NCBI RefSeq assembly: GCF_904846415.1
Contig: NZ_CAJHAR010000015.1
Location: 1-64,000, forward strand
Source of the DNA: Psychrobacter piscatorii
GTDB lineage: Bacteria; Pseudomonadota; Gammaproteobacteria; Pseudomonadales; Moraxellaceae
Direction of reading: 5' to 3'
Length of the DNA: 64,000 nt
The notes under the pieces are model-generated. The model made no database searches. It worked only from the letters and a program-made list of their open reading frames with translations, and was not told where the DNA came from. Both the position numbers and the translations under genes were made by a program. Shown here one piece after another: positions 13,670 to 28,698 of this stretch; position 1 is the stretch's first letter, and each line of letters opens with the position of its first letter.

Positions 13670-14281
13670 ATGAATACAACTAGCGAATCCTCGAAAATAT
13701 CTCCTGATAGTACGCCTAACGTATCGATTGCCGTTATTTTCCATAGCAATTATGGTCATACCAAGCGTGTCGCTGAAGCGATTGTACAAGGCGCGCATCA
13801 GCAATTACCAGAGGCGCAAGCAAAAGCTGTCGATATTTATGATATTGACTGGGATTACTTAGATCAGGCAGATCTATTGGTTTTTGGTAGCGCGGTATAT
13901 ATGGGTAGCGTGACCGCTGAATTCAAAACCTTTATGGATGAAACCTCAAAGCGTTGGTACAACCGCAAGTGGGAAGGCAAATGGGCCGCGGCTTTTGCCA
14001 ACTCGGGCGGCCTAAGCGGTGATAAACTTGCCGTACTACAGCAGATTTCTCTATATGCGATGCAGCATGGTATGAATTGGATTGGTCTACCACTCATGCC
14101 GACAGGTCATGAGGCGCACGATCTTAACCGTCTATCTAGCTTTTTGGGTTTGATGACGCAGTCGCTTGACGGTCCGCCTGAAGAAACGCCAGGGAAAGGA
14201 GATATTGATACGGCTATTTGGTTTGGTGATCATCTGGCTAAAACCATTATTAAACATCAGCCAGCGGACAGTAAGCGTTAG
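13670..14281 (+). CDS. Flavodoxin-like / WrbA-type NAD(P)H-dependent oxidoreductase
   Basis: 203 residues with a flavodoxin fold. FHSNYGHTKRVAEAI near residue 22 is the phosphate-binding loop for FMN, followed by LLVFGSAVYMGSV and a KWAAAFANSGGLSGDK segment that recalls the FxS.....GG pattern of the WrbA/NQO family. It probably reduces quinones or related substrates with NAD(P)H. The ATG at 13670 was chosen because homology starts just after it; the open frame reaches back to 13544 inside pgeF without family similarity. No signal peptide is seen, so it is cytosolic. It ends at a strong terminator. Confidence 0.82.
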   Translation: MNTTSESSKISPDSTPNVSIAVIFHSNYGHTKRVAEAIVQGAHQQLPEAQAKAVDIYDIDWDYLDQADLLVFGSAVYMGSVTAEFKTFMDETSKRWYNRKWEGKWAAAFANSGGLSGDKLAVLQQISLYAMQHGMNWIGLPLMPTGHEAHDLNRLSSFLGLMTQSLDGPPEETPGKGDIDTAIWFGDHLAKTIIKHQPADSKR

Positions 14282-14311
14282 ATAACACAGTAGGTGACAG
14301 GCTAATCCAGT

Positions 14312-14346
14312 AAAAAAGCAGACACGATTGATGTCTGCTTTTTTTT
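14312..14346. terminator. Bidirectional terminator
   Basis: AAAAAAGCAGACA / TGTCTGCTTTTTTTT with a short loop. T runs on both strands allow it to serve the flavodoxin gene and the convergent small lipoprotein gene. Confidence 0.88.
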
Positions 14347-14371
14347 ATGTCAATGTTATGGCGTGACCAGT

Positions 14372-14497
14372 TTATGGAGTAACCAGGTTAGTCGGTACAG
14401 GCTTAACAGGAATAGGGTTGTCAACAAATTGGAAGTATTGGCAACCGGTCAGCATCAGCGTCGCTATCAGCATATAAATAGAGGTAAGTGACTTCAT
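14372..14497 (-). CDS. Tiny lipoprotein, 41 residues
   Basis: A short frame on the minus strand, ATG at 14497 and TAA at 14372-14374. It encodes a lysine near the start, a hydrophobic stretch and a lipobox LTGC followed by QYFQFVDNPIPVKPVP, so a mature lipopeptide of about 25 residues, rich in P and V. It resembles other very small lipoproteins of Moraxellaceae, but the function is unknown. Residue +2 after the Cys is Gln, not Asp, so by the enterobacterial rule it would go to the outer membrane. The upstream ribosome-binding site is weak. Its 3' end faces a strong terminator, which supports a real transcript. Confidence 0.62.
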   Translation of the reverse strand: MKSLTSIYMLIATLMLTGCQYFQFVDNPIPVKPVPTNLVTP

Positions 14498-15177
14498 AAT
14501 AGTATCTCAGAGACGATATATTACCCAATAATATATCTTGTCTGTCTATCGTCAGAAGCGATGACAGTTAAAAGTAAGGTTTGTTTTTAGCTATTATATA
14601 TAAAAACAGCTCGGTTATATAAATTTAAAAACGGTGCATGTGCTTATCTTTGTTTTTAAAGAGATTATTTATTCAATCATAACGTAACTTGTCTATTGTG
14701 CGTTTGCATTAGCTATATCAATGACTAACATGACGAGTCTTATAAACTATCTCTGCTGTTAGGATTGATAGCGTTTATCAGATAGCGGCTTAAGGGTCAA
14801 TTATTTGGCAGTATCGGCAGATATTTGAATGGGTTGTGTTGTAAATAAGAATAGTGATAATATGTTGAAAGCTGACCAAATAGTCAGGTATATTCTAGTG
14901 CTAATTTTTGGCAAAAGCTCCTGACAATTACTGCTACTTATGGTCGATTTATTTGCTATAAAAGAGTGTGCGATATCAGACTCATCGACATCCTGCAAAT
15001 GCGACATAGAATAAAATAGCAAATATATCAAAAACTAAAAAATCCATAAACGTACTGGCCGATCAACTTACTTGAGCGGTTGCAGCAAAATATGGATTAA
15101 GCGTTTACCTTTCGTACTCAAGCCACTAATGCTTCTCAGTCTTATACTCACTTTCATTATTTTAGCCGAGCCTTGCT
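14498..15177. other. Regulatory spacer upstream of xdhA
   Basis: 680 bases with no convincing gene. The minus-strand frame at 14801-15031 lacks a ribosome-binding site and overlaps the promoter/operator described separately at 14865-14894. The transcript from that promoter would have an untranslated leader of about 275 bases before xdhA. I recognise no riboswitch in it. Confidence 0.5.
14865..14894 (+). promoter_or_regulatory. xdhA promoter with RutR-like operator in its spacer
   Basis: A -35 element TTGAAA (14865-14870) and a -10 element TATATT (14889-14894) are separated by 18 bases. The spacer contains the palindrome CTGACCAAATAGTCAG (14872-14887). Its reverse complement differs at only two positions from the site at 27763-27778 next to the tetR gene, and both resemble the published E. 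coli RutR operator TTGACCAnnTGGTCAA. A protein bound here would block RNA polymerase directly. Confidence 0.68.
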
Positions 15178-16884
15178 ATGATTAGTTTTTATCTCAATGG
15201 AAAATACCATGAGCTAACCCAGCTTAACCCCAATACGACAGTGCTTGAGTATTTACGATTGTATGAAGGCCAAACGGATGCTAAGGAAGGCTGCGGCAGT
15301 GGCGATTGCGGTGCTTGTACCGTAATGGTTCAGCGCCTGCCTAGCACTAGTCAGCAAACGCTTAATGATGAAAATGGCGACGAAAAAAATGCTACGCCAC
15401 CGTTCTATACGATTAATTCCTGCATTACGCTAGTGTCGCTGATGGACGGTCATCACCTGATGACGGCTTCTTATTTGGCAGACAATCCAGAGCATCATCC
15501 AGAGCGTGCCCTGTTGCATCCGGCACAGCAAGCCATGGTTGAATGTCATGGGTCGCAGTGCGGCTTTTGTACGCCTGGGTTTGTGATGTCGCTTGCTTGT
15601 GTTTACGAAAACAACCGTATGCGGATAAGTCAAAATGCAGCTGACCAGAATGATGCTAAGCAGTTGAGCTATGATGAAGTGGTTGCGTCAATATCGGGCA
15701 ACCTATGTCGCTGCACAGGCTACAGGCCGATTATTGAGGCAGGCCTGTTGATGAGTGATATCGGTCAGCAGAGAGAAGCAGAGCAGTCAGCAGTGAAAAA
15801 CCTGACGATCAGTCTAGCCACAGATGCAATGTGCAATACAAAGGAATCAGCAGTCTCTAAAAATGTGCCAGATGAAACTAAATTAAACAATACAGATCTG
15901 AAAACGATTGCACCTGCACTTAGTGATGCTGGGCGACAGTTATATATGCCCAAAACACTAGATGAGCTTAATCAGATATTGGCAGACAATCCACAGGCTA
16001 CGATTTGGGCAGGTGGTACGGACTTGGGATTGAGTGTAACCCAGCATCTAATCGATCACGAGGTCATTATTCAGCTCTCAGGTATTGAGGCACTAAAATC
16101 ATGGTCTCTATCAGATGCAACTAGTGACACATCGACTGACGAACAAACTAAAAGTCAGTCGCTAGTGCTAGGTGCTGGTATGAGCTATCAACAGATGCTC
16201 CCTGTGCTTGAGCAATACTTCCCAAGCTTTGCGCAAGTATTCGAGCGTATTGCCTCTCCGCAAATCCGTAATATGGGCACCATCGGCGGCAATATAGCCA
16301 ACGCTTCTCCAATTGGCGATTTACCACCGATTCTCTTGGCACTAGATGCATCAATTCATCTGCGTCATTGCGCGCCTAATCGTGAAGAGTCAGGTAAAGA
16401 TTTAGATAGTAGTGATTCGGTTTATACGGATGAGATCATACCGTTATCAGCATTTTTCTTGGATTATAAAAAGACCAAGCTGCAAGCAGGCAGTTATATT
16501 GTCGCCATTCATATTCCTTTGATACATGACAATCAGCACTTATTTATTCATAAAATTAGCAAACGCTACGAAGATGATATTTCAGCGTGTCTATTGACTG
16601 CGCGAATCGATGTATCAGCAGATGGCATGACGATAGAGAATGCAAAACTTGGGCTTGGTGGCATGGCTGCCATACCATTATTAGCCACAACCTGTCAGCA
16701 CGCATTGATCGGACAATCGGCTAAAATTGTGAGTTTTGAGAAGGCAGCACAAGTCTTGTCTAAAGATGTCACGCCGATGACGGATGTCAGAGCCAGCCGT
16801 GAATACCGCATGCATGTGGTACAGCGTCTACTGGTAAAGTGCGGTAAACAGTTAGTAACAGAGTTGCAGGCTGAGAACGTTTGA
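15178..16884 (+). CDS. xdhA: Xanthine dehydrogenase small subunit (2Fe-2S, FAD)
   Basis: Oxidises hypoxanthine to xanthine and urate together with XdhB; this subunit passes electrons to NAD+. In the 568 residues: a plant-type ferredoxin domain with ligands C39, C44 and C47 in EGCGSGDCGACTV; a second 2Fe-2S helical domain (CHGSQCGFCTPGF and GNLCRCTGYRPI); a linker of about 60 polar residues; then an FAD domain from about residue 255 (TIWAGGTDLGLSV, IGGNIANASPIGDLPP) and the CO-dehydrogenase-type C-terminal domain. First gene of a rightward operon, 98 bases ahead of xdhB. Control by the operator in its promoter is inferred. Confidence 0.95.
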   Translation: MISFYLNGKYHELTQLNPNTTVLEYLRLYEGQTDAKEGCGSGDCGACTVMVQRLPSTSQQTLNDENGDEKNATPPFYTINSCITLVSLMDGHHLMTASYLADNPEHHPERALLHPAQQAMVECHGSQCGFCTPGFVMSLACVYENNRMRISQNAADQNDAKQLSYDEVVASISGNLCRCTGYRPIIEAGLLMSDIGQQREAEQSAVKNLTISLATDAMCNTKESAVSKNVPDETKLNNTDLKTIAPALSDAGRQLYMPKTLDELNQILADNPQATIWAGGTDLGLSVTQHLIDHEVIIQLSGIEALKSWSLSDATSDTSTDEQTKSQSLVLGAGMSYQQMLPVLEQYFPSFAQVFERIASPQIRNMGTIGGNIANASPIGDLPPILLALDASIHLRHCAPNREESGKDLDSSDSVYTDEIIPLSAFFLDYKKTKLQAGSYIVAIHIPLIHDNQHLFIHKISKRYEDDISACLLTARIDVSADGMTIENAKLGLGGMAAIPLLATTCQHALIGQSAKIVSFEKAAQVLSKDVTPMTDVRASREYRMHVVQRLLVKCGKQLVTELQAENV

Positions 16885-16981
16885 TTGTTAGCGTGATTAA
16901 ATATCAATATTGCTTCATGAGTGTATTTGTCAGAAATAAAAAAGCGCATCGATAAGTGCGTACTAATAGAAGAGATTTGCT

Positions 16982-19555
16982 ATGAGCCATCATTCGTCTT
17001 TATTTGACAGTTATAGTATCCGCCGCGTGCGTCCACCAAAAAATAAGATCGGCACGTCAGCCAAACACGACAGTGCGATCACCCATGTGATGGGGACGGC
17101 AACTTATGTAGATGATATTGCAAAACCACAAGGCACGCTACATCTGGCAGTAGGTAAAAGCAGCCACGCTCATGCACGTGTATTAAGTATGGATCTGAGC
17201 GCTGTCAGAGAGGCTGATGGGGTGGTAGATGTTTTAAGTTTTAAAGATTTACCTGCGCAGACTGATATCGGTGCGGTGTTCGACGGTGAGCCACTGATGG
17301 TAGATGACATCACAGAGTATGTGGGTCAGACGCTATTTGTGGTAGTGGCGAGCAGTCATCGCGCCGCCAAAAAAGCCGCTACCAAGGCAGTGGTTGAATA
17401 TGAGCCATTGCCAGCGGTATTGAGTATTGATAAAGCGTTAGAGCAAGAGTTGTTTGTGCGTCCCAGTCATTTTATGAAGCGCGGCGATGCGACGACGGCG
17501 CTTGATAACGCGCCGATTCGCATTGAAGGTCATATTCATATGCGCGGGCAAGAGCACTTTTATCTTGAAGGGCAAGTGTCTTATGTGGTGCCGTGTGATG
17601 ATGGTGGGCTGGAAGTATACACGTCGTCACAGCATCCAAGCGAAGTTCAGCAACTGGTCGCCGAAGTGACGGATTTGCCCTTTCATGCGGTCAATACCGT
17701 GGTGCGCCGTATGGGCGGCGGCTTTGGTGGTAAAGAAACGCAAGCGGCGGCATGGGCCTGTCTGTGCGGCATCGTCGCCAAGCGCCATAACGTTCCTGTC
17801 AGTATGCGTCTAGACCGTCAAGATGACATGGTGGTGACCGGTAAACGCCATGAGTTTGCCAATCGTTATGAGGTTGGCTTGGATGAATCTGGGCGTATAT
17901 TGGGCGTCGATATGCAATTGGCTGGTCTGTGCGGTTATGCGCCAGATTTGTCTGATGCCATCGTCGATAGAGCGATGTTCCATTGTGATAATGCCTATTA
18001 CTATCCAGCGGCTCATGTGGCAGGTCATCGCTGCAAGACGCATACCGTATCCAATACGGCCTATCGCGGGTTTGGTGGTCCGCAAGGTCTGATGACGGCT
18101 GAATATATGATGGATCACATTGCCTATACCTTAGGTCAAGATCCTTTGCAGGTGCGCCTAGCAAACTTGTATCAAGATGGTCAAAGCACCCATTACGGTC
18201 AGACGATTGAGCACTTTGATTTGGCGACCATCATGACCAAACTGGCAGCGGATTGCGATTACGACAAGCGCCGTCAGCAAATCATAGAAGCCAATCAAAA
18301 AGCTGCCGCTGAAGGCAGTGACAAGCGTTTAGGCATCGCTCTAACACCAGTGAAATTTGGTATTTCATTTACCGTGCAGACGCTCAATCAGGCAGGCGCG
18401 CTGGTACACATTTATACCGATGGCAGTATCCATCTCAATCACGGTGGTACGGAGATGGGGCAAGGGCTATATATCAAAATTGCCCAGATTGTCGCCAATG
18501 AATTTGACGTTGATCTAGATACAGTAAAAGTGTCAGCGACTCGTACGGATAAAGTACCTAATACTTCACCAACTGCCGCGTCATCAGGTACCGATATCAA
18601 TGGTAAAGCAGCACAAAATGCTTGCTTGAGCATCAAAGCGCGCATCGTTGAATTTGCGGTTGAGCATTTTGAGGTGGCACAAGAAGACATACGCTTTGAA
18701 AAAAACCACGTCTATATCGGTGATAAAAAGACACTAACCTTTGCCGAAATGATTCAACTGTCGTATCAAAACCGTATCAGCCTATCGTCTACTGGCTACT
18801 ATAAAACGCCGAAAATATTTTATGATCGCTCCAAAGCATGGGGACGTCCGTTCTTCTACTTTGCCTTGGGTGCAGCTTGTGCTGAGGTTGAGATTGATAC
18901 GCTGACAGGTGAGTACAAAGTGCTACGCTGTGATGTGCTGCATGATGCGGGACAATCGATTAACCCTGCCATTGACATCGGTCAGATTGAAGGCGGTTTT
19001 GTGCAAGGCATGGGCTGGCTCACAGCAGAAGAGCTGATCTGGAATGATAAAGGAAAGCTCGCATCCGACAGTCCTGCCAACTATAAAATCCCAACCGCGC
19101 ATGACTTGCCTAAGCAGTGGAATGTCAAACTGTACAACCGTAAAAACGAAGAACAAACGATTTATAACTCTAAAGCCGTCGGTGAGCCGCCGTTTATGTT
19201 GGCTGCCAGCGTCTGGTGCGCGCTTAATAACGCGGTGGCTAGCCTTGGTGATTATCAAAAGAATCCAGAGCTGACCATGCCTGCGACGCCAGAAGCCGTA
19301 TTAAAGGCGGTCATGCGTATGGAAGGTTCGTCTTGGGATCTAGAGACCAAGGAGGACAAGGATACGATGGATAGCCTTGCCAAAGGCGTAGAAGAAAAGG
19401 GCGATCTCTATAACGACAAAGTCATGCCGCAAGATGTGCGCCATGCCAAAGACATCGATCCAAAAGAGGTGGCAGGCAAGCAGACCGATGAGCAGCCAGA
19501 AGCGATAGAGCACCCAAATGTCGCAGGGGCAAGAGGTCCTGCGCACAGTGAGTGA
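16982..19555 (+). CDS. xdhB: Xanthine dehydrogenase molybdenum-binding subunit
   Basis: Catalytic subunit binding the molybdopterin cofactor. The 857 residues show the aldehyde oxidase/xanthine dehydrogenase a/b hammerhead domain at the N-terminus (THVMGTATYVDDI), the cofactor-binding loop MGGGFGGKE near residue 244, AYRGFGGPQG, the GGTEMGQGL loop, and the active-site glutamate in KAVGEPPF (E735). The C-terminal 65 or so residues are a charged, low-complexity tail beyond the usual family end. The stop overlaps the start region of xdhC, suggesting translational coupling. Confidence 0.96.
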   Translation: MSHHSSLFDSYSIRRVRPPKNKIGTSAKHDSAITHVMGTATYVDDIAKPQGTLHLAVGKSSHAHARVLSMDLSAVREADGVVDVLSFKDLPAQTDIGAVFDGEPLMVDDITEYVGQTLFVVVASSHRAAKKAATKAVVEYEPLPAVLSIDKALEQELFVRPSHFMKRGDATTALDNAPIRIEGHIHMRGQEHFYLEGQVSYVVPCDDGGLEVYTSSQHPSEVQQLVAEVTDLPFHAVNTVVRRMGGGFGGKETQAAAWACLCGIVAKRHNVPVSMRLDRQDDMVVTGKRHEFANRYEVGLDESGRILGVDMQLAGLCGYAPDLSDAIVDRAMFHCDNAYYYPAAHVAGHRCKTHTVSNTAYRGFGGPQGLMTAEYMMDHIAYTLGQDPLQVRLANLYQDGQSTHYGQTIEHFDLATIMTKLAADCDYDKRRQQIIEANQKAAAEGSDKRLGIALTPVKFGISFTVQTLNQAGALVHIYTDGSIHLNHGGTEMGQGLYIKIAQIVANEFDVDLDTVKVSATRTDKVPNTSPTAASSGTDINGKAAQNACLSIKARIVEFAVEHFEVAQEDIRFEKNHVYIGDKKTLTFAEMIQLSYQNRISLSSTGYYKTPKIFYDRSKAWGRPFFYFALGAACAEVEIDTLTGEYKVLRCDVLHDAGQSINPAIDIGQIEGGFVQGMGWLTAEELIWNDKGKLASDSPANYKIPTAHDLPKQWNVKLYNRKNEEQTIYNSKAVGEPPFMLAASVWCALNNAVASLGDYQKNPELTMPATPEAVLKAVMRMEGSSWDLETKEDKDTMDSLAKGVEEKGDLYNDKVMPQDVRHAKDIDPKEVAGKQTDEQPEAIEHPNVAGARGPAHSE

Positions 19556-20519
19556 GTCATTAGCACCTCCAGTTATCTGGTATGAAGGTCTGGCGCGATA
19601 TCAGCAGCAAGGCACCGCTCATGTGTTGGCAACGGTTGTGGCTGTGAATGGCTCAGCCCCGCGTGCGCTACAGGCAAAGATGATTGTCACTCAGGATGGC
19701 ATCGTAGATACGCTGGGTGGCGGTGGTCTTGAGCACGATGTGATTACCACTGCACGGCAACTGCTAAACGGTGAAATAGCAGCGATAATATCAAAAGAAG
19801 TCAAACCAAAAGTGTCTGAAGTTGACGATACAAGCGCGTCAGCTCCTTCTAAAGCGATACGCCGTGACGCGGTCTATACCAAGCATTATCCACTGGGTGC
19901 AAAATTAGCACAGTGCTGCGGCGGTAGCGTCACTGTTATGTTTGAATGCTTTAATGTAACGCCGCCGATGTCAGTACTGGTATTCGGGGCAGGGCATGTG
20001 GCATCAGCACTCATGACCATCCTTGCTGAATTGCCTTGTCAGGTAGATTGGGTGGACAGTCGCCCAGAGATGTTTAAGCGGTATTTAGTTGATGAATCTA
20101 CTACTAATCAATCCAAACTTTATAACTTACCAGCGCATATTCGTCCGCATATCGATGATGAGCCTGTAGATTTTGTGCGTCCATTTATCGAGCAGGGTGG
20201 TCAGCGTTTTATTTTGATTATGACGCATGATCATAGTGTGGATTTTGAGCTAGTGCGAGCAACATTAGATACTATTTCTGATACCAGCTCATTTGATAAT
20301 AAATACTCAAATATCTCATTACCCTATATAGGCTGTATTGCCTCATCCACCAAAGCCAAGCGTTTTAGAGATCGTTTGATTCAGCGTGGCTACAGTGAGC
20401 AACTGGTTAATCAGCTCATCATGCCAATCGGATTACCAATTGGTGGTAAAGAGCCGATGGCAGTAGCCGTGTCTATCGTGGCGCAGCTCTTACAGCAATA
20501 TCATCAGGCTGAACGCTGA
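19518..20519 (+). CDS. xdhC: Xanthine dehydrogenase accessory protein XdhC
   Basis: Binds the molybdenum cofactor, has it sulfurated and hands it to XdhB. The N-terminal XdhC/CoxI domain is seen (VVAVNGSAPRALQAKMIV, LGGGGLEHDVI, and CCGGSVTV near residue 135), then a C-terminal Rossmann-like domain (VLVFGAGHVASAL, MTHDHSVDFEL, IGCIASSTKAKRF, GLPIGGKEPMAVAVSI). The ATG at 19518 overlaps xdhB by 38 bases. A GTG at 19548 in the same frame, with GAGG upstream and only an 8-base overlap, is an equally plausible start. It would remove ten residues that carry no family similarity. Confidence 0.93.
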   Translation: MSQGQEVLRTVSESLAPPVIWYEGLARYQQQGTAHVLATVVAVNGSAPRALQAKMIVTQDGIVDTLGGGGLEHDVITTARQLLNGEIAAIISKEVKPKVSEVDDTSASAPSKAIRRDAVYTKHYPLGAKLAQCCGGSVTVMFECFNVTPPMSVLVFGAGHVASALMTILAELPCQVDWVDSRPEMFKRYLVDESTTNQSKLYNLPAHIRPHIDDEPVDFVRPFIEQGGQRFILIMTHDHSVDFELVRATLDTISDTSSFDNKYSNISLPYIGCIASSTKAKRFRDRLIQRGYSEQLVNQLIMPIGLPIGGKEPMAVAVSIVAQLLQQYHQAER

Positions 20520-20635
20520 GTTTCTATGTGCTCAATATAGCCCCGTTTTAGCATCGTTATTTTCCGTCGAATTATTAAACGCTCAGCACGATTTATTAAA
20601 ATGTTCAGCATTATCAAGCCATGTGAGACCACCCA

Positions 20636-22066
20636 ATGACCCTACATATTTATCAAGCTCATTTATTACATTATATTAGCGAAGATGACCTTGCTAAGCG
20701 TACGGCTGCTGAATTATCCGATACTAGAATTCCTGACTTTCTCGTAAATCTGACCGTTGATAAAGATACAACGTTGCTTCCAGTAATTGCAGGCGTGCGT
20801 GTTTACCCTGAGTATATTACTGACGGCGCACTTGTTATTGATGATAAGACTGGACTGATTATTAATTATGGTAGTCGAGAGGCGATGTTAGCAAATTATG
20901 TGCTGACCGCTACTAATGACAGTCAAGAACCAGTCCAGATTCATGACCATCGGCACAAACTCATCATGCCAGGTTTTATCGATACTCATGTTCACTATCC
21001 GCAGATAGATATGATCGCCGCTTACGGTGAGCAACTGCTCGACTGGCTCAATAATTATACCTTTGTGACGGAAGCCAATTTCGGTGATCCAAAAGTAGCG
21101 CACGATACGGCTAATTTCTTTTTAAGGCAACTACTTGCTAATGGTACGACCAGTGCCATGGTTTTTGCGACCAGTCACCCGCTATCCGCCGAGGCGTTTT
21201 TTACTGAAAGTCATAGGCTTAATACGCGCATGATTACGGGCAATGTCTTGATGGATCAAAATGCACCTGAGCAGCTATGCGTGCCTGTTGAGCAAAGTAT
21301 CCGCGATACTCAAGATATCATTGATAATTGGCATGAGCGTGGGCGTCAGCATGTGGCGATTACGCCAAGATTTGCCATTACATCAACACCGCAACAGTTG
21401 CGCATGGCAGGTGAGTTATATGCCAGCTATGACAGTGTGTATTTACAGACGCATCTGGCAGAAAACCGTGATGAGGTGGCTTTTGTACAACAGCTTTATC
21501 CCCATCATAAAGGTTACCTCGACGTCTATGACGATATGGGTCTGTTAGGCCGCCGTACCACCTTGGCACATGGTATCTATCTTGAGACACCAGAGTATGA
21601 GCGTCTACGCGCGACTGGTACGCAAATATCACATTGTCCAACGTCCAATCTGTTTTTGGGTAGTGGGCTGTTCGATTTACCCAAGACGTTAAGTTATACC
21701 GGTGTCAGTATCGCCACCGACGTTGGAGCAGGGACGAGCTTATCGATGCTGACGACGTTATCAGAGGCGTACAAAGTCCAGCAGCTACAAGGTAATCAGC
21801 TATCCGCGCATCAAGGGTTATATCAGATCACCTTAGGCAATGCGCAGTCGCTACTATTGGGCCATAAAATCGGTAACTTTATGCCCAATAAAGAAGCAGA
21901 TTTTGTTGTAATTGACATGGGTGCAACCGAATTGCTTGAGCGGCGTATGGCGCAGACCAAAACCGTTGAAGAGCAACTATTTGTGCTGATGACGCTGGGT
22001 GATGATAGAGTGATCGAGCAGACGATCATTGCAGGTCAGAGCCGCTATCGAAAATCTGCAGCCTGA
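20636..22066 (+). CDS. guaD: Guanine deaminase
   Basis: Hydrolyses guanine to xanthine and ammonia, feeding XdhAB. An amidohydrolase of 476 residues with the zinc motif DTHVHYPQID near residue 120, the guanine-binding GEQLLDWLNNYTF, HLAENRDEV, LAHGIYL, SHCPTSNLFLGSG and the metal-binding DVGAGTSLSM. It is the last gene of the rightward xdh operon (116-base gap with no terminator after xdhC) and ends at a terminator shared with the convergent allA operon. The N-terminal 85 residues form the small beta domain typical of the family. Confidence 0.95.
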   Translation: MTLHIYQAHLLHYISEDDLAKRTAAELSDTRIPDFLVNLTVDKDTTLLPVIAGVRVYPEYITDGALVIDDKTGLIINYGSREAMLANYVLTATNDSQEPVQIHDHRHKLIMPGFIDTHVHYPQIDMIAAYGEQLLDWLNNYTFVTEANFGDPKVAHDTANFFLRQLLANGTTSAMVFATSHPLSAEAFFTESHRLNTRMITGNVLMDQNAPEQLCVPVEQSIRDTQDIIDNWHERGRQHVAITPRFAITSTPQQLRMAGELYASYDSVYLQTHLAENRDEVAFVQQLYPHHKGYLDVYDDMGLLGRRTTLAHGIYLETPEYERLRATGTQISHCPTSNLFLGSGLFDLPKTLSYTGVSIATDVGAGTSLSMLTTLSEAYKVQQLQGNQLSAHQGLYQITLGNAQSLLLGHKIGNFMPNKEADFVVIDMGATELLERRMAQTKTVEEQLFVLMTLGDDRVIEQTIIAGQSRYRKSAA

Positions 22067-22094
22067 TAAACTAGCGAAAATATGAGTCATAAGA

Positions 22095-22129
22095 AAGCCT
22101 CGTTTATATATCATAAACGGGGCTTTTAT
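22095..22129. terminator. Terminator between convergent guaD and allA
   Basis: AAGCCTCGTTTAT / ATAAACGGGGCTT with a 5-base loop and one G-T pair, followed by TTATT on the plus strand and CTTTCTT on the minus strand. It separates the two convergent purine operons. Confidence 0.78.
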
Positions 22130-22181
22130 TGGTTTGGTCTGTGTCTTTTGTTCTGTACTTATGGGATAGCTTAGCGGCTTT

Positions 22182-22223
22182 TTTTCTAATTGATATTTTC
22201 TAACTGACGTTTTCTAATTCAAT
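22182..22223. repeat. Three imperfect 14-bp tandem copies at the allA 3' end
   Basis: Units TTTTCTAATTGATA, TTTTCTAACTGACG and TTTTCTAATTCAAT follow each other directly. The last two encode the final residues and stop of allA; the first lies downstream. Probably a small slippage duplication. Confidence 0.5.
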
Positions 22224-22727
22224 AGACACATTCCAGTCCGTAATATCTATCTCATGGCAGTTGTTACCTTCGCCATTGATACGATCAATCACCAAAAAAT
22301 CACTGTCACGCCCAAGAGCGAGTAGAGGGTGATGCCAGACATTAGCATCGTACTGTACACCTTGGTGAGCTTTTGCATAAAACACTGCTAGATCGTCAGG
22401 CGATTGTGGTGGCGTACCTGCTTTGGCAACGACGACAATATAGTCCTGACCTTCCATCGAGACAAATGCTTGTGTCCCAAACGGATGATACTCCATGACG
22501 GAGAGCGCAATCGGATTCTCACGTTTTTTGGCTCGAAAGATACTTATGCCAACAGCGCCACCCTCAAGCTGACTCTCAGCAAGTGCATGATGGCGAACCG
22601 CATAGCCATTATTGATCTCATAAGTATTGTCAGCCGTTTGCTCCTCCTCACTATAGCGCTCAATAACCGAGCCGTAAGGGGCAAAGTTGGCTTTGGTTAA
22701 AGGCTGAGCGGTTAGCATGATACTCAT
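22200..22727 (-). CDS. allA: Ureidoglycolate lyase
   Basis: Splits ureidoglycolate into glyoxylate and urea, the last step of this purine route. The 175 residues form a cupin-like AllA/DAL3 protein: [14 protein letters not shown] at the start, [15 protein letters not shown] in the middle and [20 protein letters not shown] towards the end, with the conserved histidines of the active site. Its ATG overlaps the alc stop by one base (TAATG), a sign of translational coupling. The C-terminal codons run into a short tandem repeat. Confidence 0.93.
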
Positions 22728-23845
22728 TATTTAACCTCTATATCATCAGTAGTACTAACATGATCTGCCACTTTACCAAACACGCGCACGCGGCTGATAC
22801 CACCATCTGGGAAGATATTGACCCGAATATGGGTGATAGGCTGATCTATCTGGAGCTTATCGTTACCAAAGGTATGGATATCATCGGCATTGGTTTTTTG
22901 CGGCTCAAGCAACGTGTCCCAAAACATACTTTGCGTGACTAAGGTTTGCTCTGGTGTATTTGGCGAATAGACGGCTTGGATCGAGATTTTATCAGGGTAG
23001 TTGCCTTTGAAGTGAGCGGTATCGATTTCGATAGAATCGACAATACCTGCTTGACCTAAGGCAATAATGCACCAGTCATTACCTGGCTCACGGCGACGAC
23101 GTGTCTCCCAACCATCACCCATATTAGGGGCTTTGGTCGGTAACAGTAAGTTGCTGGCTTCCCCAAAATGCGCGTCATTACTGGCAATCGCGCGACCGCC
23201 GTTTAACGCGCCTGCCAAGTCAATCGTCTCGCCTTGTTTGCTCAGGCTCGCATCAAGTTGGATATCGCCATAGACACGTAATCGAGCCACGCCGCCATCT
23301 GGATAAATATTCAAACGGATATGGGTGACCGTTTGCTCATCATCAATCTCAACAAACTCATGGTGATTGCCCTGTAGTGGGGTCATTCCGACAAGGGAGT
23401 GCCAGTTTTTACTGTCCCAGTCTTCTTTATTGAGGCTAGTAAGCTCAGTTTCATTTTGTTGTAGCAGCTCTGGCGCGTATAAGGCATCGACACTGGCTGA
23501 AGAGGGGAAGTTACCGGTAAAGTGACTGGTATCGATATCAAGCCCTGCAATTTTGGTTGGGCGGGCAAGTTGAACGATTAAATAATCATAACCTAAATGA
23601 CGCTTGCGGCGTGTCTCCCAACCGTCCATCCATTTACCATTATCGTCAAATTTGCCTACGATAAAGATAGGCGCATCAGGATTTAAAATGCGGCTTTTAT
23701 CTGCAAAAAAGTCATCCGTCGCAAATAGCGCTTTGGCGCCCAAGCGACTATCAGCCACGTTTGATTTTTTAGTAAAAGCTGGCAGGCTCTCAGGTAGGTT
23801 GTTTGCTGAGATAATTTGTCCCACTTCTGAAGTATTTTGACTCAT
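22727..23845 (-). CDS. alc: Allantoicase
   Basis: Hydrolyses allantoate to ureidoglycolate and urea. 372 residues made of two similar allantoicase domains. Each has the sequence pattern DGWETRR(R/K)R followed by a D/N-W-C/Y-I-type core and an HFTGN/HFKGNYP motif, and each ends in H.R.NI.PDGG..R.RV.G (about residues 180-200 and 335-355). There is no signal peptide. It lies between puuE and allA in the leftward operon. A six-copy TTGA repeat stands 27-50 bases upstream of the start and could change promoter or leader spacing. Confidence 0.95.
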
Positions 23846-23871
23846 AATGATTCCTTTATTCTATATTAGGT

Positions 23872-23895
23872 TTGATTGATTGATTGATTGATTGA
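23872..23895. repeat. Tetranucleotide repeat (TTGA)6 upstream of alc
   Basis: Six perfect TTGA copies (TCAA on the transcribed strand) in the 114-base puuE-alc gap, 27-50 bases before the alc start. Adjacent to it is an inverted repeat GTGTCG/CGACAC (23896-23922). Such tracts are prone to slipped-strand changes in copy number. Confidence 0.8.
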
Positions 23896-23959
23896 GTGTC
23901 GCTTGTTTTATTTATTCGACACACTGCGACGTGCTCAATGAGCGAGGCAATGGCAAAAG

Positions 23960-24940
23960 CTACATCCAGTTGGCTGTATTGTCTGGTGTTGCAGGGTGGT
24001 TCTCATACCAGTGTTTGGCGATCTCATCACGGCGGCATATCCACACGTCAGGCTTATTGGTGATATAGTGCAAAAATTGCTTCAACGCTTTGATACGTCC
24101 TGCCCGTCCGATAATGCGGCAATGCAAACCGATGGTTAGCATTTTGGGGGTGTGCTCACCTTCTTCGTACAGGGTATCAAAGCTGTCTTTGAGGTATTGA
24201 TAAAATGGCTCGGCGTGAGTAAACCCTGGGCTAGAAGAAAAGCGCATGTCGTTGGTCTCTAAACTATAAGGGATGACCAAATGCGGCTTGCGCGTAATCA
24301 AATTGCCTTCTTGAGCTTTGACATTGAGCCAGTAGGGCAGCTCATCGCCGTATGAGTCAGAGTCATAATGATAGCCACCTTGTTCAACGACCAGCTCGCG
24401 CGTGTTTGGACTATCGCGCCCCGTGTACCAACCGAGCGGCTGTTTGCCTAGCATGCGCTCAAATATATTGGTTGCACGGCGAATGTGCTCACGTTCCGTC
24501 TCGCGATACATATACTGATAAGTGATCCAGCGCAGGCCGTGACTGGCAATCTCATGACCGTCTTCTAATACGCGCTCAATAATGTGCGGCGTTTTTTCAG
24601 CAGCGGCAGCACAGGTAAAGGTGGTGATTGGAACACCATACCCTTTGAATACATCTAACACCCGCCATACGCCGACACGGCTCCCGTATTCAAATGCTGA
24701 TTCGATAGACTGGTGACGGTTGTTAAATTCGGGCGTACCTAAAATATCAGACAAAAAACGCTCTGATTGTCCATCGCCATGAATGACGCTATTTTCTGCC
24801 CCTTCTTCGATATTCAAGACAAACTGTACGGCGATTTTTGCGCCGCCCGGCCAGTTGGCTTTTGGTGGGTTGCCAGCATAGCCTTTTAGATCGCGAGGAT
24901 ATGTGCTCAGATCAAAATCACTGGTAATTTTTTTGCTCAT
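23960..24940 (-). CDS. puuE: Allantoinase PuuE (polysaccharide-deacetylase fold)
   Basis: Opens the allantoin ring to give allantoate. 326 residues of the NodB-like PuuE family, unrelated to amidohydrolase allantoinases such as AllB. Visible marks: STYPRDLKGYAGNPPKANWPGGAKIAV at the N-terminus (positions 12-38), FVLNIEEGAENSVIHGD, the HEIASHGLRW metal/active-site region near residue 130, GWYTGRDSPNTRELV and LHCRIIGRAGR. Part of the leftward operon, 82 bases after puuD. This family typically co-occurs with PuuD, HiuH and UraD, as it does here. Confidence 0.95.
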   Translation of the reverse strand: MSKKITSDFDLSTYPRDLKGYAGNPPKANWPGGAKIAVQFVLNIEEGAENSVIHGDGQSERFLSDILGTPEFNNRHQSIESAFEYGSRVGVWRVLDVFKGYGVPITTFTCAAAAEKTPHIIERVLEDGHEIASHGLRWITYQYMYRETEREHIRRATNIFERMLGKQPLGWYTGRDSPNTRELVVEQGGYHYDSDSYGDELPYWLNVKAQEGNLITRKPHLVIPYSLETNDMRFSSSPGFTHAEPFYQYLKDSFDTLYEEGEHTPKMLTIGLHCRIIGRAGRIKALKQFLHYITNKPDVWICRRDEIAKHWYENHPATPDNTANWM

Positions 24941-25022
24941 TACTTATGTTCCTATATCTCGTGGAGCCTTAGATATTTATTTGAATATTGCTCGTAAAGG
25001 GAAGTTATTTTTTGATAACAAA

Positions 25023-26315
25023 CTAAAGCGACGACGCGTACGCTACAAGCTGTTGGCGCTCTGTATCCGTCAACTGAGTAATATTACCCAGTGGCATATA
25101 GCCCGTTTGTACGGCAGTAATGATTTTTGCTTTATGTATCTTTAGGTCTTCTGGTGTTTGCAAAATGATACCTGCTGGCGGCGCGGCAAACCCTTGCTGT
25201 GTTGGCTGCACCGCATGACAGGTGCTACAGCGCGTATGCACAACATCCATCATAGCGTCATCTGCTGATGCGCTCACGGGTATGGCTTCAGCAGTGGCTG
25301 CATCATTGCTAACACTGTTATTATTAACGCTATCAGTATTTGTATTAGTAGTCGTAGGTGCTACTGCGGCGGTAGCAGGTATTGCAGGCACTGGCTCAAT
25401 CGGCTCAGGTCGCATCCAAATAATCAACAATACTGTCAATATGGCTGGAATGACTAAGTAGCGTGGTTTTTTATGACCTAAATGTTTTTGATTAAAATAA
25501 TGACGTGCCGTTGCGGTGATAACGCCAACGAAGACCAAGACCAACCAACCTTTTTCATGAGCGTACATCATCGGATAGTGGTTACTAATCATGGTAAAGA
25601 TGAGCGGTAGAGTAAAGTAGTTATTCATCAGTGAGCGGTTTTTGGCTTGCAATGCCAATTCAGCGACTTCTTTACCCGGTTTTTCACCGCGCCGCACACA
25701 ATCAACGAGTGCGCGCTGAGCTGGCATAATACCAAAGAATACGTTACCCACCATCACCGTGCCCAAGATGGCACCGATATGAATGAACGAGGCGCGATCA
25801 CTAAACAGTTGATAAGAGCCCCAGCTCGCGATGACCAATAAAATAAAAATCAGAGTGCTAAAAATAAAGGCATTTTTACCCAAATGACTGCGCACGATAA
25901 CTTCGTAAATAAAGTAACTACCGAACAAAAACAGCAAGCTTGTCGCAATGGCACCGATACTGGTAAAAGGTACCTTACTTGGGTCAATCAGGTAGGCAGT
26001 TGCATTGGCATAATAGACAATCGACATCATCGCCGCACCGGTCAGCCACGTGGTATACGCTTCCCACTTAAACCAATGTAGCGTCTTTGGCATTTCCTCT
26101 GGTTCGAGTTTATATTTGGCAATTTCATAAAACCCACCGCCATGCACCGCCCATAGATCACCCGAGATACCTTTATCGGCTTTCCACTGCGGCGGCTTGC
26201 GTAGGCTTAGATCTAGCCACACAAAATAGAACGATGCACCAATCCATGCCACCCCAGCGATAACATGAAACCAGCGGAAAAATAAACTCAACCATTCAAG
26301 AAGGTAGGCGCCCAT
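25023..26315 (-). CDS. puuD: Membrane urate hydroxylase PuuD with C-terminal cytochrome c
   Basis: Oxidises urate to 5-hydroxyisourate at the inner membrane, replacing soluble uricase. The 430 residues have about eight hydrophobic segments (starting with LFFRWFHVIAGVAWIGASFY and including NVFFGIMPAQRALVDCVRRG). A linker of about 50 residues rich in A, T, N and P follows. Then comes a cytochrome c domain with haem site CSTCH near residue 360 and a probable axial Met in GYMPLGN. Electrons probably pass from the haem to the respiratory chain. It lies between hiuH and puuE; a strong inverted repeat sits in the 93-base gap to hiuH. Confidence 0.95.
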   Translation of the reverse strand: MGAYLLEWLSLFFRWFHVIAGVAWIGASFYFVWLDLSLRKPPQWKADKGISGDLWAVHGGGFYEIAKYKLEPEEMPKTLHWFKWEAYTTWLTGAAMMSIVYYANATAYLIDPSKVPFTSIGAIATSLLFLFGSYFIYEVIVRSHLGKNAFIFSTLIFILLVIASWGSYQLFSDRASFIHIGAILGTVMVGNVFFGIMPAQRALVDCVRRGEKPGKEVAELALQAKNRSLMNNYFTLPLIFTMISNHYPMMYAHEKGWLVLVFVGVITATARHYFNQKHLGHKKPRYLVIPAILTVLLIIWMRPEPIEPVPAIPATAAVAPTTTNTNTDSVNNNSVSNDAATAEAIPVSASADDAMMDVVHTRCSTCHAVQPTQQGFAAPPAGIILQTPEDLKIHKAKIITAVQTGYMPLGNITQLTDTERQQLVAYASSL

Positions 26316-26358
26316 GTGGTAAGTGTCCTTTAATATGACAGTGTCTTGATAAAATATT

Positions 26359-26386
26359 TGTGAGCGGATAACGATTTTCGCTCACA
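26359..26386. repeat. Inverted repeat with lac-operator-like half sites between hiuH and puuD
   Basis: TGTGAGCG (26359-26366) and CGCTCACA (26379-26386) form a perfect 8-bp inverted repeat with a 12-base spacer. The left arm plus spacer matches 19 of 21 positions of the E. coli lacO1 core. It lies 44-71 bases upstream of the puuD start on the transcribed strand. It may act as an intercistronic RNA hairpin or as an operator for a LacI-type protein. No T run follows on the minus strand, so it is not a standard terminator. Confidence 0.55.
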
Positions 26387-26408
26387 GTTTTTCGATAATA
26401 AAGTTAGA

Positions 26409-26777
26409 TCATGATCCACGATAGGTACTATAACCATGCGCACTCAGAAGTAGTGGCACGTGATAGTGGCTGGCGTCTTTTACCACAAAGTCGATAACCA
26501 CTTGCGGATAAAATGCCGTCAGCTGCTGGGCGTCAAAATAAGACTGGGTATCGAACGTTATGGTATAGCGCCCGATAGCGAGATTACCTTCATTGTCATC
26601 AATAGCTGCATCAAATTGCCAAGCATCTGGTGTCACGCGGCCATCGGTATTGGTCGTCCCATGTGCAAGTAGTATCGTGTCACCACTGTCTTGTATGCGA
26701 TGTAAGGTGACAGCGATATCAGCGGCAGGCGTGCCCAAATGAGTATCTAAGATATGTGATGATAGGGTGGCAGACAT
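26409..26777 (-). CDS. hiuH: 5-Hydroxyisourate hydrolase (transthyretin-like)
   Basis: Hydrolyses 5-hydroxyisourate to OHCU after PuuD. 122 residues with the three family marks: LSSHILDTHLGTPAADI at the N-terminus (active-site His), RYTITFDTQSYF in the middle, and the C-terminal tetrapeptide YRGS in HGYSTYRGS. It is cytosolic, with no signal peptide. Flanked by uraD and puuD in the leftward operon; this trio converts urate to S-allantoin without spontaneous racemisation. Confidence 0.96.
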   Translation of the reverse strand: MSATLSSHILDTHLGTPAADIAVTLHRIQDSGDTILLAHGTTNTDGRVTPDAWQFDAAIDDNEGNLAIGRYTITFDTQSYFDAQQLTAFYPQVVIDFVVKDASHYHVPLLLSAHGYSTYRGS

Positions 26778-26915
26778 AATGCTTCCTTTGTATTCAGTAA
26801 AAACGTAAATAGGGTGGTAAAGCTAGCGCAGCTTATAATTAGGGTGTTATATGAGCATCAATAATACGGTGTATTGTTGATTGGCTGTCAAATCGCTAAT
26901 TAACAACTGGTTTAA

Positions 26916-27437
26916 CTAAGCATTGCCTAATAGTTTGCTTAGACGTAAACGTGTGATTTTATTTTGTTCTGCGGCGGCATTAGCGAGTTCTGTTGCGTGA
27001 TCATTTGGCAGGCGCGCCAAGAGCAAATCGAGCATTTGCGCCGCGCTTTTGCCGGTTGCAAAGACAATAAAAATAAACCCAAATTTATCAAGATAATCTT
27101 GATTGCCTTTAGCGAGCGCTTCGAGTACATCGTCTGCCGCATCGTTAGCGCCAGACTGCTCATGTGCAGCGCTATCTTGTGTATTGCGATATTTCTCTTT
27201 TAAAGAAGCCACATTACCGATTTGTGGATGTCCATCAAACGCTTCTAGCAAGTTGGTCTCATTGGTTTGCACGTCATGCCAGATAGCATCGCTATTCGCT
27301 AAGAGCGCATCGAAATCTGCAAAAGGACGCGCATTGGCAAGCTTATTTGCCCAAACGCTACTGGTACAGCAGGTTAAAAGCTGAGCAATAGCTACTTCCT
27401 GAGACAAATCATTAAATTGCGCTAAGGTTAAGCTCAT
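26916..27437 (-). CDS. uraD: OHCU decarboxylase
   Basis: Decarboxylates OHCU to S-allantoin. 173 residues from the ATG at 27437, which has AAGGAT eight bases upstream; the frame continues to 27512 but without similarity or a ribosome-binding site. Conserved marks are the catalytic-histidine motif FDGHPQIGN, YLDKFGFIFIVFATGKSA near residue 125 and the C-terminal NKITRLRLSKLL. First gene of the leftward operon, about 325 bases from the RutR-like operator at 27763-27778, which overlaps a possible leftward -35 element. Confidence 0.94.
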   Translation of the reverse strand: MSLTLAQFNDLSQEVAIAQLLTCCTSSVWANKLANARPFADFDALLANSDAIWHDVQTNETNLLEAFDGHPQIGNVASLKEKYRNTQDSAAHEQSGANDAADDVLEALAKGNQDYLDKFGFIFIVFATGKSAAQMLDLLLARLPNDHATELANAAAEQNKITRLRLSKLLGNA

Positions 27438-27904
27438 GATGATATCCTTTTTGTTGGTATGACAGCCCATTATGTGGACTGGATAACTATTGTTTAATAA
27501 AGGTTTATACATGGTGGTTTTTTGCTTAGACTTAGCGATAGCAATCGATGTTTTTATGGTTTGTTTTTTAGTTTTTCGACGTTTGCATTTTTAGTTAGGC
27601 AAGCCCGCAGGCCATGTTTAAGTTGCTAGCTTTCTAATCATGATAAATTGACGATACAGAACGTATTTTTTGAGGAAATACTAATAGTTGAGCCGCAAAA
27701 TGACATGGCAGTATAGTTTTGGTCGTAATACGTGTGATTTATAATTACCATTCTGCTAAAACCTGACTAATTGGTCAACTGTTTTATGAGAATTTTTTGT
27801 TTAGTGGCTCATGCTGCGAAAATCTGTGTATTGATATATAAAAACATTCAAAAATATAGCGACTATTTTGTCGAACCAGCCACTTGGAGTGAGATACCAT
27901 TGTT
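27438..27904. other. Divergent uraD-tetR regulatory region
   Basis: 467 A/T-rich bases between divergent uraD and the regulator gene. The notable content is the operator at 27763-27778 and a TATAAT at 27740-27745 facing the regulator. The leftward transcript would carry an untranslated leader of about 300 bases. I recognise no riboswitch or small gene. Confidence 0.5.
27763..27778. promoter_or_regulatory. RutR-like operator next to the regulator gene
   Basis: CTGACTAATTGGTCAA matches 14 of 16 positions of the reverse complement of the site inside the xdhA promoter. It carries one full RutR half site (TGGTCAA). Its right arm, read leftward, is TTGACC, which with CAGAAT 17 bases further on forms a possible promoter towards uraD. 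It also lies just downstream of a possible rightward -10 (27740-27745) for the regulator, which would fit autoregulation. Confidence 0.66.
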
Positions 27905-28570
27905 ATGACTCAAGATAATCAGAAAGAGGATATCCTGACTACTGATGCGCCATCGCATCGTAGTCAACAAGTTACGCGCGCGCACAATCAAGCGTTGATA
28001 CTGGCAGCCGCTGAAGAGGAGTTCGTGCTCCAAAGCTATCGCGGCGCTACAATGCAAGGCATCGCTGATCGAGCAGGACTGCCTAAAGCCAACGTTCACT
28101 ATTATTTTAAAAACAAAAAAAACCTATATATGGCGGTGCTACGCTCGATTATTGAAGAATGGAATGACGGCTTGGTGACCATGACAGTGGACAGCGATCC
28201 AAAAACCGTCATTGAAAAGTTTGTCCGTACCAAGCTGCATCAAGCTTTTGTCAATCCGAGTCGTCATAAGTTGTTTGCCATTGAGGTTATCGGCGGTGCG
28301 CCTCACTTGCACGAATTTATGTCCACAACGATGAAAGAGTGGGTAAATGATAAAGCGCAAGTCATGAAAGAATGGCATGAGCAAGGCAAGATTGGGATTA
28401 CAGACCCCTTGCAGCTACTAATTTTGATATGGGCGACGACCCAGCGTTACGCTGAATTTGAGATTGAAATTGTCGGCTTAATGGACAAAACAGCTTATGA
28501 CGCAGAAGATGAAGCACGCGCAGCAGAGTTTTTAGTACCCTTTATCTTACGAGGTTGCGGGCTTGAGTGA
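27905..28570 (+). CDS. TetR-family regulator, RutR-like, probable purine-catabolism repressor
   Basis: 221 residues. An N-terminal TetR DNA-binding domain has its helix-turn-helix at about residues 48-79 (MQGIADRAGLPKANVHYYF, then the typical KKNLYMAVL). A RutR-type ligand-binding domain follows, with HKLFAIEVIGGAPHLHEFM and a C-terminal ATTQRYAEFE helix. E. coli RutR senses uracil or thymine and controls pyrimidine and purine degradation genes. Here the neighbours are all purine catabolic genes, so a purine-derived ligand is plausible but unproven. Two RutR-like palindromes bracket the region. The start has GGAG rather far upstream (about 16 bases), so an unusual nearby start is possible. 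Confidence 0.85.
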   Translation: MTQDNQKEDILTTDAPSHRSQQVTRAHNQALILAAAEEEFVLQSYRGATMQGIADRAGLPKANVHYYFKNKKNLYMAVLRSIIEEWNDGLVTMTVDSDPKTVIEKFVRTKLHQAFVNPSRHKLFAIEVIGGAPHLHEFMSTTMKEWVNDKAQVMKEWHEQGKIGITDPLQLLILIWATTQRYAEFEIEIVGLMDKTAYDAEDEARAAEFLVPFILRGCGLE

Positions 28571-28620
28571 CTGTGCTAAAAGCAGACTTGAAACTTGTCT
28601 TTGTCTATTGTCGCCAACAA

Positions 28621-28659
28621 AGAAGCCTTAACCATAATGAATATGGTTGAGGCTTTCTT
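28621..28659. terminator. Bidirectional terminator between the tetR gene and tolB
   Basis: AGAAGCCTTAACCATA / TATGGTTGAGGCTTTCT with a short loop. It lies between convergent genes, with T-rich bases on the plus side and a TTCTTTGTTGG stretch on the minus side. Confidence 0.8.
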
Positions 28660-28698
28660 GTGTGAGTAAATTCTAACGTTATGAATCAGTTGCCTAAA

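Follow-up and report, generated by a model that had tools for sequence, protein, structure and literature searches.

A 64,000-nucleotide stretch of Psychrobacter piscatorii DNA (NCBI RefSeq assembly GCF_904846415.1, contig NZ_CAJHAR010000015.1, positions 1 to 64,000 of the forward strand; hereafter the window) carries a tetR gene at 27905-28570 whose product is probably a RutR-type repressor dedicated to purine breakdown, acting at two matching palindromes and induced by a purine base or urate (rough probability 0.83). The palindromes, which are very probably where the regulator binds, enclose two convergent gene sets, xdhA-xdhB-xdhC-guaD on the plus strand and uraD through ureidoglycolate lyase on the minus strand. 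The results favour a separate purine regulon of wide distribution, for which an operator is defined and targets are predicted. Site identity, site conservation, coupling to the regulator, regulon content, the predicted fold, the pocket substitutions and a rut-linked paralog with its own box were computed here, and from them we infer DNA binding, a dimer, repression rather than activation, the operon structure and a ligand that would be urate or xanthine. The operators and the regulator are as follows.

14872..14887, no strand: operator 1, CTGACCAAATAGTCAG, upstream of xdhA; predicted operator
27763..27778, no strand: operator 2, CTGACTAATTGGTCAA, between uraD and tetR; predicted operator
27905..28570, plus strand: RutR-like TetR regulator, 221 aa, with PF00440 and PF08362

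Placement and conservation of the predicted operators

The preliminary description of this DNA had reported agreement between the two palindromes at 14 of their 16 bases; the comparison was reproduced at the same coordinates, the reverse complement of operator 1 matching operator 2 at 14/16. Each operator is palindromic in itself at 12/16 positions, and operators 1 and 2 match TTGACCANNTGGTCAA, which we take to be the E. coli RutR box, at 11/14 and 12/14 defined positions, respectively. With up to 2 mismatches, no place in the window besides operators 1 and 2 matches CTGACYANNTRGTCAR, and the count is not above that of shuffled sequence (4 strand-matches vs a mean of 2.31, reached by 26/100 shuffles). 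At up to 3 mismatches there are 89 window matches vs a shuffle mean of 70.2 (1/100 shuffles reach 89), and this setting was not used. By number the operator sites are close to chance, but not by placement or conservation.

The exact core, TGACYANNTRGTCA, lies upstream of tetR in 73/78 Psychrobacter genomes examined (28/29, 2/2 [L128 and L129] and 43/47), these being 78 of the 79 regulator-bearing genomes, with G192, whose regulator is broken, left out. Genome G210 has the site with a single mismatch; in G138 an exact site precedes uraD and does not adjoin tetR, with a 771-residue open reading frame (ORF; TonB-receptor-like by eye) intervening; and no tetR-upstream site was found in G193, G200 and G190 (3 of the 78). 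Across 24 site-anchored rows picked from the tetR-upstream loci and aligned, the 14-base site window has a mean identity of 0.94, non-overlapping windows having a median of 0.60 and reaching 0.89 at most, and the near flanks of the site are likewise conserved.

Site number follows the presence of the regulator, which was detected in 79/105 genomes of the genus (E up to 1e-20; the G192 copy is broken); xdhA is present in 61/105, all 61 within the 79. Exact sites per genome are 4.03 with the regulator (n=79, none with zero) and 0.85 without it (n=26, 13 with zero), and the reversed control does not differ between the two groups (2.01 vs 1.88). The Mann-Whitney P for the site counts is 8e-13, a descriptive value that ignores relatedness. 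At the other end of the locus, 59 of the 61 xdhA loci were examined (G199 and G190 left out) over stretches of 1.5 kb to about 3.3 kb, and a site near xdhA or near a permease gene preceding it, upstream of which sites were also counted, was exact at 35/59, had one mismatch at 4/59 and was lacking at 20/59. In the close clade the exact core was present at 22/23 xdhA loci, G066 being the sole exception. In that genome foreign sequence, which looks transposase-like by eye, takes the place of the operator-bearing xdhA upstream region at the end of a contig (L108:1-300).

Many relatives also have a PbuX-type permease beside tetR, with an exact site of its own in 30/30 loci, compared with 0/30 for the reversed pattern and 2/30 for the region upstream of hpt, the hypoxanthine-guanine phosphoribosyltransferase (HGPRT) gene; the 30 permease loci were examined out of 70 genomes with a permease match among the 105. 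In relatives such as G062 (L126:4277-5683) this permease lies between tetR and tolB. It was not found in the window's genome, where tolB directly follows tetR (28570-28702). When 20 further exact sites were fetched from relatives, recurring ones being preferred, 7/20 were flanked by a PbuX-like permease gene on one side and a DUF2868 gene on the other (L322-L327, L338) and 9/20 near a DUF5020 gene (L328-L334, L339, L341); families were tested for L322, L338, L329 and L330 (4 of 16 sets), the remainder being assigned by eye from similar sequence. The DUF2868 gene may belong to the purine regulon, and the DUF5020 gene, with its signal-peptide-like start, perhaps encodes an outer-membrane channel for nucleosides or bases. 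Searches of the window's genome gave no close relative of the PbuX-type permeases, and a single search for the DUF5020 gene, made without a positive control, came back empty, so the exact set there consists of the two window sites and an unconserved site at hpt. The predicted regulon as a whole comprises xdhABC, guaD, uraD to allA and the PbuX-type permeases, which is purine catabolism together with transport. It had been proposed as a local regulon; the predicted control at both outer ends of the locus is supported, but in relatives the regulon reaches PbuX-type permeases and, probably, the distant DUF5020 gene.

Beyond the genus, the regulator is matched at 1e-25 or better in 98/293 genomes of the order, and among 18 best-match neighbourhoods 9 match xdhA or xdhB and 4 carry the exact site. 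A set of 80 named loci (10 Psychrobacter and 70 others) was collected via conserved peptide patterns and is not a random sample. Outside Psychrobacter, an xdhA or xdhB match lies within 8 kb in 37/70 of these loci, and at least 2 purine genes are found in 35/70; the xdh matches were taken without an identity floor, and a few may be other molybdenum enzymes. Genes rutA, B, C, E and F were matched in 0/70. The exact site occurs in 20/70 outside loci vs 1 for the control. Eleven of these 20 sites precede an xdhA match by 45-138 bases and 1 precedes the tetR match by 33 bases, distances that run to tblastn match ends and not to mapped starts; the remaining 8, mostly from Colwellia and relatives, are near other genes.

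Several observations weigh against the proposed regulon. The exact core occurs at 3 places in 3,514,701 bases (~3.5 Mb genome), compared with 4 for the reversed control and 0.73 expected under a first-order model fitted to the window, and one-mismatch places number 44 vs 64 for the control, for which reason no further targets are claimed from one-mismatch sites. The third exact place (contig C6:101755-101768, L001), 58-72 bases upstream of the hpt start, is unconserved, being exact in 2/30 loci, with one mismatch in 2/30 and at least 3 mismatches in 26/30 (30 loci examined out of 105 with an hpt match). Among the 20 further sites in relatives, 4 are inside unrelated ORFs (L335, L336, L337, L340), and 50/70 named outside loci are without the exact site. 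The P values overstate independence because the genomes are related. Control of xdhA does not extend to the whole genus, since no site was found at 20 of the 59 xdhA loci (contig ends truncate 3 of them, and 1, G066, has foreign sequence) and the one-mismatch site of G023 is ~2.4 kb from xdhA. As a regulon member hpt was rejected on the strength of an exact site in just 2/30 loci, and its site is left as a chance or recent one.

The genome-wide number of sites is within the range of its control, some sites in relatives are in unrelated ORFs, and the hpt site shows that chance or drifting sites do occur. That both palindromes match by chance, or serve another factor, is highly improbable, given conservation upstream of tetR in nearly all genomes examined, coupling to the presence of the regulator and recurrence at xdhA in other families. 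Nor did the genome-wide scan find the motif to be common and randomly placed, a prospect raised in the preliminary description, as the exact core is limited to its 3 places. The predicted operators at both outer ends and upstream of the regulator's own gene, the latter implying autoregulation, had been put forward there too, and they are supported by site conservation, regulator coupling and recurrence outside the genus.

The regulator, its ligand pocket and a rut-linked paralog

The regulator protein has TetR_N (PF00440, 45.5 vs 24 bits) and TetR_C_3 (PF08362, 126.3 vs 25 bits) domains above gathering score and is below the RutR equivalog cut-offs (TIGR03613, 134.6 vs 368 bits; PRK15008, 123.4 vs 230 bits). 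Its gene has no rut linkage, with purine genes on the uraD side and tol genes on the other. For these two reasons it is not filed as RutR, though it would work like RutR; because its best named family matches are RutR models, it is easily mistaken for a pyrimidine regulator. The predicted structural model has a mean predicted local distance difference test score (pLDDT) of 87.4, and RutR entries rank first against it with Z of 22.3-25.1, the next entry having 17.4; the best-ranked fold is that of uracil-bound RutR (Z 25, 198 residues aligned at 30% identity). Like E. coli RutR (YcdC; TIGR03613, PRK15008; PDB 4JYK, 6Z1B), the protein combines TetR N-terminal and TetR_C_3 domains in a RutR fold, keeps W77, W167 and Q171, has a putative palindromic box of ~16 bp and is encoded in divergent order with a predicted target operon. 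Unlike E. coli RutR, it adjoins purine and not rut genes, has Y97F and Q179E, and falls in a separate clade. In a 51-row tree, one clade (100/99) unites E. coli RutR with a paralog from the window's genome and a regulator of a different genus in the family, and every other xdh-linked or Psychrobacter row lies outside it, on the other side; this tree is midpoint-rooted and has long branches, which lessens its weight.

In E. coli RutR, according to passages of PMC10891134, uracil is stacked between W77 and W167, bonded by Q171 and by Q179' of the other chain, and reached through a water on Y97. At these contacts (W77/Y97/W167/Q171/Q179') the window regulator has W, F, W, Q and E, so that 3/5 are kept and two are changed (Y97F and Q179E), and the same five residues are present in all 31 Psychrobacter proteins aligned (of 79 genomes). 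Outside Psychrobacter, xdh-linked proteins commonly have F97, with Y retained in some and L present in two, and the rows compared retain Q179. The pocket is therefore no proof of a new ligand, Y97F being uneven, with several xdh-linked proteins keeping Y, and Q179E having been seen only in Psychrobacter. Xanthine and urate contain a uracil-like ring, and since they do, a kept clamp with altered edges is what one would expect for a purine ligand. Regulon content and the changed uracil pocket together suggest that the ligand is a purine, either urate or xanthine.

A second RutR-type TetR regulator is encoded in the same genome (L106:9397-10047, contig C6), divergent from rutA, rutB, rutC, rutF and a RutG-like permease gene. 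This paralog keeps all five uracil contacts (W, Y, W, Q, Q) and is likewise under the RutR equivalog cut-offs, with 218.2 (TIGR03613) and 203.8 (PRK15008) bits. Its upstream region holds ACCATATGGT with A/T-rich bases on either side, most often as TTTAGACCATATGGTTTAAA or TTAAACCATATGGTCTAAA, and the same is true of 14/14 paralog loci (own locus, L106:10048-10502), and TGACYANNTRGTCA was not found there at up to 1 mismatch; the 14 loci come from 16 genomes with the paralog, and rut linkage was checked in the window's genome only. The boxes of the two regulators have the ACCANNTGGT core in common but not the bases around it, a pattern that would be expected of paralogs kept separate. With a different box on the rut side, the window regulator appears to be a sister of RutR dedicated to purines; presumably the paralog fills the rut role, and its presence strengthens the idea of a separate ligand.

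It is unlikely that the regulator is a uracil sensor like RutR, merely placed over purine genes and tying purine nitrogen use to pyrimidine status. The retained W77, W167 and Q171, and outside Psychrobacter Q179 as well, would suit such a sensor, but a rut-linked RutR with all five contacts and a box unlike that of the window regulator is already encoded in the same genome, positions 97 and 179 of the window protein are F and E, and every target that could be identified in the genus is a purine gene or a PbuX-type permease.

A broader proposal, that a RutR sister subfamily in many Gammaproteobacteria is a purine-catabolism repressor, seems to us evenly balanced between right and wrong. Such proteins would have kept the tryptophan clamp and Gln171, which recognise a pyrimidine-dione ring, and been re-tooled for that ring as part of xanthine or urate, their TTGACCA half-sites would have diverged from the TTTARACCA-like ones of the paralog, letting both regulators coexist, and they may include the missing regulator of an allantoin-induced cluster in Pseudomonas. 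The rut-linked paralog in the same genome provides a natural control, and the pair is suited to the study of joint ligand-pocket and operator divergence after duplication.

Predicted promoters and proposed mechanism

Three predicted promoters are associated with the operators.

14834..14863, plus strand: probable xdhA promoter, TTGTGT-N18-TAATAT, pattern kept across diverged lineages; operator 1 begins 8 bp after the -10
14865..14894, plus strand: alternative xdhA promoter, TTGAAA-N18-TATATT, consensus scan, 10/12
27750..27778, minus strand: probable uraD promoter, TTGACC-N17-CAGAAT, scan 9/12; the -35 is inside operator 2

A TTGAAA/TATATT promoter with the operator in its 18-base spacer had been described upstream of xdhA. 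It is present at 14865-14894, but it is hardly conserved past close relatives, and TTGTGT/TAATAT (TTGTGT at 14834, TAATAT at 14858) is kept more widely. In the close clade the context of operator 1 reads TTGAAA-gC-TGACCAAATAGTCA-rG-TATnnT (one row has TATATA), and TTGAAA is otherwise kept at the permease-side one-mismatch site of G148 and not in the other lineages shown. The broader pattern, TTGTnn followed after 17-18 bases by TAATAT, TACTAT or TATTAT and then the operator, also occurs where TTGAAA is absent and includes lineages with a permease gene before xdhA (18 rows, by eye). TTGTGT-N18-TAATAT was not among the matches of the consensus promoter scan, which lists TTGAAA/TATATT instead. 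Under either choice operator 1 is predicted to overlap the promoter or start region of xdhA. On the uraD side, the promoter flank is conserved in the 24 aligned rows.

In the proposed mechanism, the ligand-free dimeric regulator would bind the palindrome around its core. Occupancy of operator 1 would cover the xdhA promoter or start region, blocking xdhABC-guaD, and occupancy of operator 2 would control a uraD-hiuH-puuD-puuE-alc-allA operon and tetR itself, as operator 2 is located between these two genes and coincides in part with the probable uraD promoter. An incoming purine base or urate would lie between the tryptophan pair that stacks on uracil in RutR and free the regulator from DNA, so that both operons are induced.

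Activation, or some logic other than steric repression, is quite unlikely. Passages of PMC6245113 and PMC10891134 report that RutR, a repressor of rut, activates carAB, but the site here follows closely after the putative -10 of xdhA and of the permease gene and covers the putative -35 of uraD, which are repressor positions, the promoters themselves being predicted. Long distances separate the operators from the genes (291 bases to xdhA and 251-326 to uraD) and would leave room for a leader RNA such as a riboswitch between operator and start codon. No Rfam family reaches threshold in the window, however, and the 14200-15300 region holds four weak matches only (E 0.14 to 0.85), to sRNA and microRNA families far below thresholds; it is most improbable that such an RNA is the main control of the operons.

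The purine gene locus and known regulators

Control by the proposed repressor would apply to the following genes.

15178..16884, plus strand: xdhA, xanthine dehydrogenase small subunit (TIGR02963, 447.5 bits, cut-off 467; Pfam domains above cut-off)
16982..19555, plus strand: xdhB, molybdopterin-binding subunit (TIGR02965, 1174 bits, cut-off 849.5)
19518..20519, plus strand: xdhC accessory protein (TIGR02964, 193.2 bits, cut-off 161.6)
20636..22066, plus strand: guaD, guanine deaminase (TIGR02967, 524.2 bits, cut-off 375.4)
22200..22727, minus strand: ureidoglycolate lyase, allA-like (PF04115, 170.2 bits; under NCBIfam cut-offs)
22727..23845, minus strand: allantoicase, alc (TIGR02961)
23960..24940, minus strand: allantoinase PuuE (TIGR03212)
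25023..26315, minus strand: urate oxidase, PuuD type (PF06181 Urate_ox_N)
26409..26777, minus strand: hydroxyisourate hydrolase, hiuH (TIGR02962)
26916..27512, minus strand: uraD, OHCU decarboxylase (TIGR03180)

The names first given to the flanking genes are borne out by profile matches; xdhA and ureidoglycolate lyase miss the NCBIfam cut-offs and pass those of Pfam. The true start of uraD is likely at 27437 and not at 27512, as AGGA precedes an in-frame ATG at 27437 and the resulting product begins like that of a relative. At 568 aa, xdhA is longer than its family model (468); additional residues separate its iron-sulfur and FAD domains.

Known regulators of purine catabolism include PucR (Bacillus), HucR and PecS (MarR type), XdhR (Streptomyces, TetR type) and the Hpx regulators (Klebsiella), which respond to purine compounds by adjusting xanthine or urate catabolism and belong to other families or TetR subfamilies. 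Among the matches listed from the openly licensed literature, no RutR-type purine regulator is reported. RutR is listed under pyrimidine catabolism in PMC5343134, whose main text is without the words Psychrobacter, xdh and xanthine and whose supplementary target lists may hold purine genes. In Pseudomonas aeruginosa, the RutR-type TetR regulator PA1504 may control an allantoin-induced cluster, a possibility described as under study in passages of a 2025 article (PMC12694930), and it is listed as a motility regulator in part of a paper on chromatin immunoprecipitation sequencing (ChIP-seq; PMC13086498). The window regulator, to which PA1504 is likened by its description, represents a candidate regulator type for purine and allantoin use in Pseudomonas.

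Elsewhere in the window, a gene of the Xan_ur_permease family is located at 32963-34258. The sole operator-core match upstream of it has 3 mismatches (32587). Its product, which we take to resemble the AzgA/PbuG purine permeases, has relatives near purine genes of other families.

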